Assembly (NCBI RefSeq): GCF_040954835.1
Contig: NC_090711.1
Span: 3,727,501-3,791,500, forward strand
Direction of reading: 5' to 3'
DNA length: 64,000 nt
From: Lepisosteus oculatus
Lineage: Eukaryota; Chordata; Actinopteri; Semionotiformes; Lepisosteidae
Position numbers and translations under genes: made by a program. The notes beneath the pieces are model-generated. The model ran no database searches. It worked only from the letters and a program-made list of their open reading frames with translations, and had not been told where the DNA came from. This document shows positions 59,101 through 62,100 of the stretch, one piece after another (position 1 is the first letter of the stretch; every line of letters begins with the position of its first letter).

Positions 59101-62100
59101 CAAGAGGCTCCTGGAAGAGGTCAAGAACCTGCAAAGTATGCTGAAGTAAGTCCCCCCCCTCCCCAACTAAGTGTGCTAGAAAGTTCTTGCCCCTCCCCCA
59201 ACAAAGTGTGCTGCAGTAAGTCCCTGCTGGATTTTTACATGACTGTGTCACAGTCACACAGATGGCACACATGCACTTATACATCAGGTGACCCACTTCA
59301 TCTACCCGCCCGAATAATGTGCAGCAGCAACTCTGCACCAGCAGCCTGACTATTTCAGGTAGAGAAGTGAGAAAAAAAACTGCTTCACCAGCTGAAACAA
59401 GATGGAACTTCAGGGAGACCACATCGTCCAAGCCCTGAGTGAAATAAGTCCAGGATAGGTTAAAGGAATTCTTACAGTCCGTGCTACAGGATCTTTGATG
59501 GCCAGGTTGCCTGGACCTGAATCTGTATTGTCTGTATGTCTCACAGTGCGCCCAGTCACCATACTGGGACACAGATTGGGAAATTCTGGTCCAGGGGTCC
59601 AACCAGGAACACCTGCAGGCCCGGGGCTGCCTGTTAGGTTGTCTGATTTTTTTAGGTCTAGTCGTTATTATCTGTGTCTCAACAGCGAACAGAACGGCAA
59701 ATGTTCCACCGCGTCCACCCCAGACGCAAACCTGTCACCAGAATCTGCGGCCGTGCTGCCTCCGCTGACCTCTGTGAAGCAGACAACAGAGGGTGCTCTT
59801 CCGGGACAGCCCATCTCCAGGAACCCCGAGCAAAGTCGACAATCGGCTGGTGACGGTATGTGTGATCTTTCCATTTTTTTCCGGGCAGGATACCCTAAGG
59901 CTTTCGAAAAACAGAAATCTAGATGATCCTTGAGCACTTCCTTCAAGGAACATCCCTTAAAGTGTCTTTAAGGGATGTTCCTTGAAGGAAGTGCTCAAGG
60001 ATCATCTAGATTGTGTGCTTACACATGAGTTAGCAACGGCATGATTCATTTTTTTAACCACATTAAAACAAGGAAGGAACAAATATTTATCAGGAACTGT
60101 TCCGGTATATGACAGAGCTTAATACACAACATGTCAGATCTAAGAAATGATCCCTCTTTTAAATATTTAGAATTATCCACAGGTTTGTAAATTACATAAT
60201 ATTATCACATAACAAGTATTACAAAACAATAAAAGAACATACATTGCTAGCACTGATACAATATTGTTTGTACAGATAATTTAAACAAATCTACAAAGCC
60301 CTCTGTTAACATACTCTTTGGACTACGGTTTTCTAAAATCCGTCCATTTTTGTTTCAATTTTGTAGATGGTGCCCATCCTCTCAGAAAGCTGCTTAACTG
60401 GAATGGACAAGACACTCATGTAAGTATTTCATGGTTTTCATAGTATTGTTTGTCTTGTTCAGATGTTGTAAAAATGCATCACACATTAGCTGTTATTCTA
60501 AGCAGAAAATCAGGTTCATATAAATTCTTCAGAAAAAGATTAGTTATTAAGAATTAGATGGCTGTACTTTCTTTTGTATCCTTTATACAACACTAAATTA
60601 AATAAATTCCTTGAAACATATATCTCTGATGGTGTAATCTTTTTTTTTCTATTAGATGCATTCAGTTCCAATGTTCAGTTCAGTTAAATGCATTCAGTAG
60701 GAACAAAAGTGAGGTTTCAGACAAGAAGAGGCCTGTGGGCTCCTTTAGGAACAGTAGGCAAAGCTGCACACAACTCCGTCCTTAACAACCATCTCAGCCT
60801 GACTGTCCCTGTTTGTCCTGTCACTGCACCACGCCCAGAGGATGTCCAATACACTGCACAGCACCATAGCTGTGGTGTCTCCGGGTTCGAGAGAGGAGAG
60901 GAGTAGTTCCCAGGGCAGTCCAGGGATCGAGAAGAGGTGAGAGAATTGGGAGGGTGCCTTGGCTGTCCATCCGCTGTGTTGATATCGTACAGTGCTCCTG
61001 AAAGAGCTACTTTAGCTGGTGGATCTAGACAGGAGGATTCTTGTGCATCTAGATTTCTGTAGATAGATAGAATGTGTGTTATTATTTGGAAGGCTGTGAC
61101 GAAGCAAGGATTTTCAGCGCTTTGAGTCCAATCGAGAATGCTCTGAATGCGACTAAGGAGACGGCATGTGTTTATCGCCCCCTGCAGGGCGAAGAGAGTG
61201 GAAGTGCGGGGGAAGTCGCGCTCGCCCCCGGCGGCGACCAGGAGGGCCGCTCCGTGCGCGAAGCCGCTCCACCAGGTTCACGCGCCCGTGCCGTTCCGGC
61301 CACACGTCGTGGACAAGGGCCAGCACCTGGCTTACAGCTGGCCCGCGGGGGGCCCGCCGGACTGGTTCCGCGCTCGGGAGGCGCTGGACAGCGGCGTACC
61401 GGTGATCGACCTCTTCGGCAACCTGGTGTACATGAAGGACTACCACCTGGACCCCAGCCCCCGGAGCCTGCTGGGGAAGAAGCCCGAGCCGGAGTTCTGC
61501 TGGTACGACGGGAAGGCGGCTCTGTACCGTGCCTCGGCCAGCTCTCTGAACAAACTCCCGCCGGCGGAGAGCAGCCCGAGGGAGGGGGGGAAAGCCAGGG
61601 CCAGCCTCGATCAGAAACTGGGAAAGCTGGTCAGCCCTTGCCAAAAAACCCTGGACAAGCCGCTGGACCTGTCGGAGCGCGGGAAGTTCCGGCAGCTCAG
61701 CGAGCCGGCCGAGGAGCCGCCGGAGGAGGTCGACTCCCAGGCGGAGAGCGACGGCCCCTCTGGCGGGAGCCCGAAGGACGCACAGCCCTCTGCGGCAGAT
61801 CCTCCGCTGCCCACCCACGGCTCCTCCAGCTCAGATCAAGCTCAGTCCCCTGCGGCAGACCACTGCCCCCCACAGGAAGAGCAGGGAAAAACAGCTGAGC
61901 AATCAGTGAGTAACCCTGTGAACTCTTAATATAATAATACTGAATCTCACACTTCTATAGCGCTGTTCTGGACACTCCACTCGAAGTGCTTTACAGGTAA
62001 TGGGGATCCCCTCCACTACCAATGTGCAGAACCACCTGGGTGATGCGACGGCAGCCACAGTGCACACAGTACGCTCCCAACACACCAGCTCTCAGTGGGG

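Follow-up and report, generated by a model that had tools for sequence, protein, structure and literature searches.

The hairpin in this intron of Lepisosteus oculatus raises two questions: how two long arms came to be exact reverse complements of each other, and whether their perfect pairing reflects selection or youth. The left arm (59916-59962, forward strand) is 47 bp long and is followed by a 3-nt loop, TGT (59963-59965, forward strand), and by the right arm (59966-60012, forward strand), its exact reverse complement. A sequence-only reading of the window, the 64-kb stretch of DNA analysed here, had described a perfect palindrome of 97 bp, and this description is exact to the base, with 47 of 47 positions paired and no mismatches. 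Pairing is lost at the first six bases beyond the hairpin, so that the ends are sharp on either side, and the flanks are unlike each other. The hairpin lies in a 511-bp GT...AG intron of an RBBP8NL-like gene (59856-60366, forward strand), with the donor GT at 59856-59857 and the acceptor AG ending at 60366. It begins 60 nt after the splice donor, as had been stated. The exons on either side (59685-59855 and 60367-60419), once joined, give a single open frame. As RNA, the segment 59900-60030 folds with an energy of -89.2 kcal/mol (z -16.35), and none of 200 shuffles is equally stable.

The hairpin had also been placed inside RBBP8NL. The location in an intron between in-frame exons holds, but the name of the gene can be given only tentatively. 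The open reading frame near 56.3 kb matches profile positions 1-18 of Pfam CtIP_N (E 0.063) and the one near 59.1 kb matches positions 96-120 (E 0.009), both under the family cut-off. The latter frame also matches an unrelated family, HALZ, about equally well (E 0.008). Of two further open reading frames, the one near 56.6 kb had a weak unrelated Pfam match and the one at 61147-61929 had none. The CtIP_N matches fit RBBP8NL while falling short of proof. GATA5 and RBBP8NL adjoin in vertebrates, and the window contains a gene with a GATA-N domain at about 9.6 kb (Pfam GATA-N, E 1.9e-71).

Perfect arms of 47 bp cannot have arisen by chance. An independent-base estimate gives an expectation of 3.2e-22 per 64 kb for arms of at least 47 bp with loops of 0-20. 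The runner-up in the window is a perfect hairpin with 16-bp arms in an AT-rich repeat (loop up to 20). The longest found elsewhere, with the same loop limit, has arms of 20 bp, in 248,563 bases from 36 further loci in this genome. These are the 43 background loci minus 7 that overlap the window site, and about 0.31 Mb was scanned in total, the window included. Since this sample is small, it places the hairpin far beyond the common run but does not give the frequency of such hairpins in 1.2 Gb.

The window contains other inverted repeats of a looser kind. An AT-rich nested palindromic repeat at 44629-44736 has perfect arms of up to 16 bp and arms of 37-40 bp at 80-89%. A further inverted repeat at 48265-48564 has 40-bp arms that are 85% complementary and 220 nt apart; its CAGGGGTCTCCAGCCTTGGTCCTGG end suggests a fish element of hAT type or similar. 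At 53434-53456 there is a weak resemblance that was rejected, being by eye a short chance hairpin.

The number of copies in the genome bears directly on the origin of the arms. The sequence-only reading had suggested a search for other copies of an arm; this was run on 1,200,105,466 bases in 813 contigs, and no further copy turned up at the sensitivity applied. With the 97-bp hairpin as query there is no second locus in the genome, and the sole match is its own site on both strands. With a 1001-bp query the hairpin is matched nowhere else and a second haplotype copy was not found. This longer query gave at least 14 short matches of 81-91% identity at its positions 42-100, upstream of the hairpin. 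They correspond to a dispersed-repeat fragment of about 55 bp at 59541-59599, in the intron 5' of exon 59685-59855, with at least 14 other places at this identity. The DNA searches skip very common words and score only their best candidates, and the pattern searches matter for this reason. Strongly diverged copies could escape. Allowing for up to 3 mismatches, the 27 bases at the centre of the arm occur in 1.2 Gb once forward and once in reverse. These are the two arms, and the reversed control gave 0. For the outer 20 bases, three matches lie within 2 mismatches, namely the two arms plus a stray match at 2 mismatches; the reversed control gave 1. The source of the arm is local, without repeats elsewhere at the sensitivity of these searches, and the hairpin is a short-spaced perfect reverse-complement copy of adjacent DNA. 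Both features are as expected of a template switch.

The hairpin is likely to be the scar of one short-range template-switch mutation in replication. This reading is based on the perfect arms, the 3-nt loop, the sharp ends, the lack of a second copy in the searches, the unlike flanks, a quasi-palindrome within the arm and a short repeat, GTGT, at the junctions. The replicating strand would have stalled near the pre-existing quasi-palindrome and copied some 47 nt in reverse, from either the nascent or the complementary strand. It would then have rejoined its template, leaving a reverse-complement copy inserted 3 nt from the original. From this arrangement we infer that a second arm was inserted beside an ancestral one, together with which arm is which, replication as the cause, the direction of copying and the age of the event.

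The quasi-palindrome is located in the left arm (59922-59954, forward strand) and is mirrored in the right. Its stem of 11 bp falls into runs of 4 and 7, contains one mismatch and encloses a 9-nt loop. As DNA it folds with -8.1 kcal/mol (z -3.90), with no equally stable sequence among 200 shuffles, and among the 2991 47-mers taken from the window 1.6% are as stable as the left arm and 1.9% as stable as the right. It is a plausible stalling point for replication; quasi-palindromes are described as mutational hotspots via template switching in the available text of PMC7202029. The right flank can also form a small stem, but its stability is equalled by 22 of 200 shuffles (z -1.68) and is nothing unusual. 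GTGT, made up of the final base of the left arm plus the loop (59962-59965, forward strand), recurs at 60013-60016, directly after the right arm. With the left arm as the original, the repeat would be a possible return point of the copying, judged from a 4-bp match that is weak in itself. For the opposite polarity of copying there is no junction match exceeding 3. Both the GTGT repeat and the quasi-palindrome are modest features that were spotted post hoc.

A small palindromic transposable element, such as a MITE or foldback element, could also insert a structure of this shape. In fish such an element consists wholly of an inverted repeat, exists in many copies and is flanked, beyond its inverted repeats, by target-site duplications. 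The hairpin resembles them in being all inverted repeat and differs in that no second copy was found. Near the end of the left arm is a self-palindromic 8-mer, ATCTAGAT (59917-59924, forward strand), which consequently also occupies 60004-60011. The presence of ATCTAGAT at both ends could pass for an 8-bp target-site duplication, and its TCTAGA core occurs in the target sites of some hAT elements. However, the 8-mer is found at both ends because the arms are complementary and it is self-palindromic, so it is no independent evidence of a target-site duplication. It occurs solely as part of the arms, and the sequence beyond them contains no direct repeat of at least 4 bp in the 10 bases next to either border. 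The termini of the hairpin lack the initial CAG or TAG of hAT elements. A recently moved palindromic transposon should also leave a relative, and multiple genomic copies were not found with the 97-bp, 1001-bp or 27-base queries, while the outer 20-base query, the two arms apart, stayed at control level. This single-copy status speaks strongly against a MITE family, and insertion of such an element is very unlikely.

A 15-mer at 59911-59925, made up of the edge of the left arm and five bases outside it, recurs inverted at 61046-61060, 1.1 kb away. An 18-letter pattern of the arm edge (up to 1 mismatch) is found at 17 places genome-wide, both window sites included, with 4 in the reversed control, and this excess is unexplained. 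The 60-base flanks of 8 of these 17 loci, the hairpin site included, and of the 61046 site were compared without gaps, and no pair is identical at 27 or more of 60 positions, barring the self-match of the hairpin site. With no shared flanks among those compared, the 15-mer is treated as a common short word and not taken for a repeat family.

The remaining explanations concern why the arms are still identical. The sequence-only reading had offered four: a recent event, gene conversion, selection for a small RNA or an editing duplex, and an assembly fold-back. Of these, the first is the best fit, if 'recent' is taken to mean a single event still too young to have decayed. Selection would require that the intron release a functional hairpin RNA (a young microRNA, a source of endo-siRNA or an editing duplex) whose pairing is kept perfect. 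The very stable fold and the intronic position favour this, and template-switch hairpins are reported as a source of new microRNAs in the available portion of PMC8794818. Against it, none of the 21 Rfam matches listed (E up to 10) reaches the gathering score, and the proposal of selection is unsupported. These sub-threshold matches are spread over many families, mostly microRNAs and bacterial small RNAs, as would be expected of a long perfect stem. A functional RNA maintained by selection is unlikely. An assembly or sequencing artefact, from a fold-back read or a polymerase jump, is highly improbable. The arms are short, the flanks are unlike, and collinearity and phase are preserved between the two neighbouring exons, whereas a fold-back read would be expected to mirror long stretches without a return. 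The hairpin could instead be an old inverted repeat held identical by gene conversion between the arms or by repeated template switching, and the available parts of PMC8604942 and PMC8794818 describe template switching as a means of homogenising the arms of inverted repeats. This would require an older inverted repeat at the site, of which there is no sign here, and the sharp ends suit a single event; such maintenance is the least probable of the explanations considered.

With a single template switch as the preferred origin, the hairpin is now probably a neutral part of the intron and should in time decay or be lost by deletion. Perfect pairing is what would be expected of a young neutral event, although 'recent' may mean several million years. 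Zero mismatches in 94 sites give 95% upper limits on a neutral age of 6 to 64 Myr for assumed rates of 5e-9 to 5e-10 per site per year, so the dating is loose.

Comparable events have been catalogued in great apes, where 4017 template-switch events are reported and the majority patterns result in single inverted repeats, according to the text available from PMC7954356. Under the four-point model of that study, such events are like the gar hairpin in forming a perfect local inverted repeat, and most of them add length overall (PMC7954356, available text). The ape events covered by that text have a known ancestral state, whereas that of the gar hairpin has to be deduced. In the gold-standard set of 1503 events, the copied length has a median of 12 and a maximum of 128 (PMC7954356, same portion). 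The 47-nt copy proposed for the hairpin is long beside this median, which counts against the template-switch reading, and lies below this maximum. A second comparison is with microRNA stems such as MIR633, which the accessible part of PMC8794818 infers to be template-switch reverse-complement repeats in which mismatches follow a phase of perfect pairing. The likeness is in the perfect stem and the proposed one-step origin from single-copy DNA. The difference is that the MIR633-type hairpins have acquired later mismatches, as presented in that part of PMC8794818, while the gar stem is free of mismatches and is known from sequence alone. Among the literature matches listed, nothing newer than PMC8794818 was recognised on template-switch microRNAs.

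The hairpin is real and is most likely a template-switch scar, a long yet ordinary case of a known class of mutation. Its value lies in a clean, long and perfect stem in apparently unique DNA. If orthologs carry one arm, the hairpin would represent a one-step event of 47 nt, well over the ape median of 12. It is quite unlikely that this hairpin, if very young and transcribed in the pre-mRNA, acts as a mismatch-free proto-microRNA or a source of siRNA. The locus offers a natural case for asking if hairpins newly arisen in introns give rise to small RNAs or interfere with splicing.
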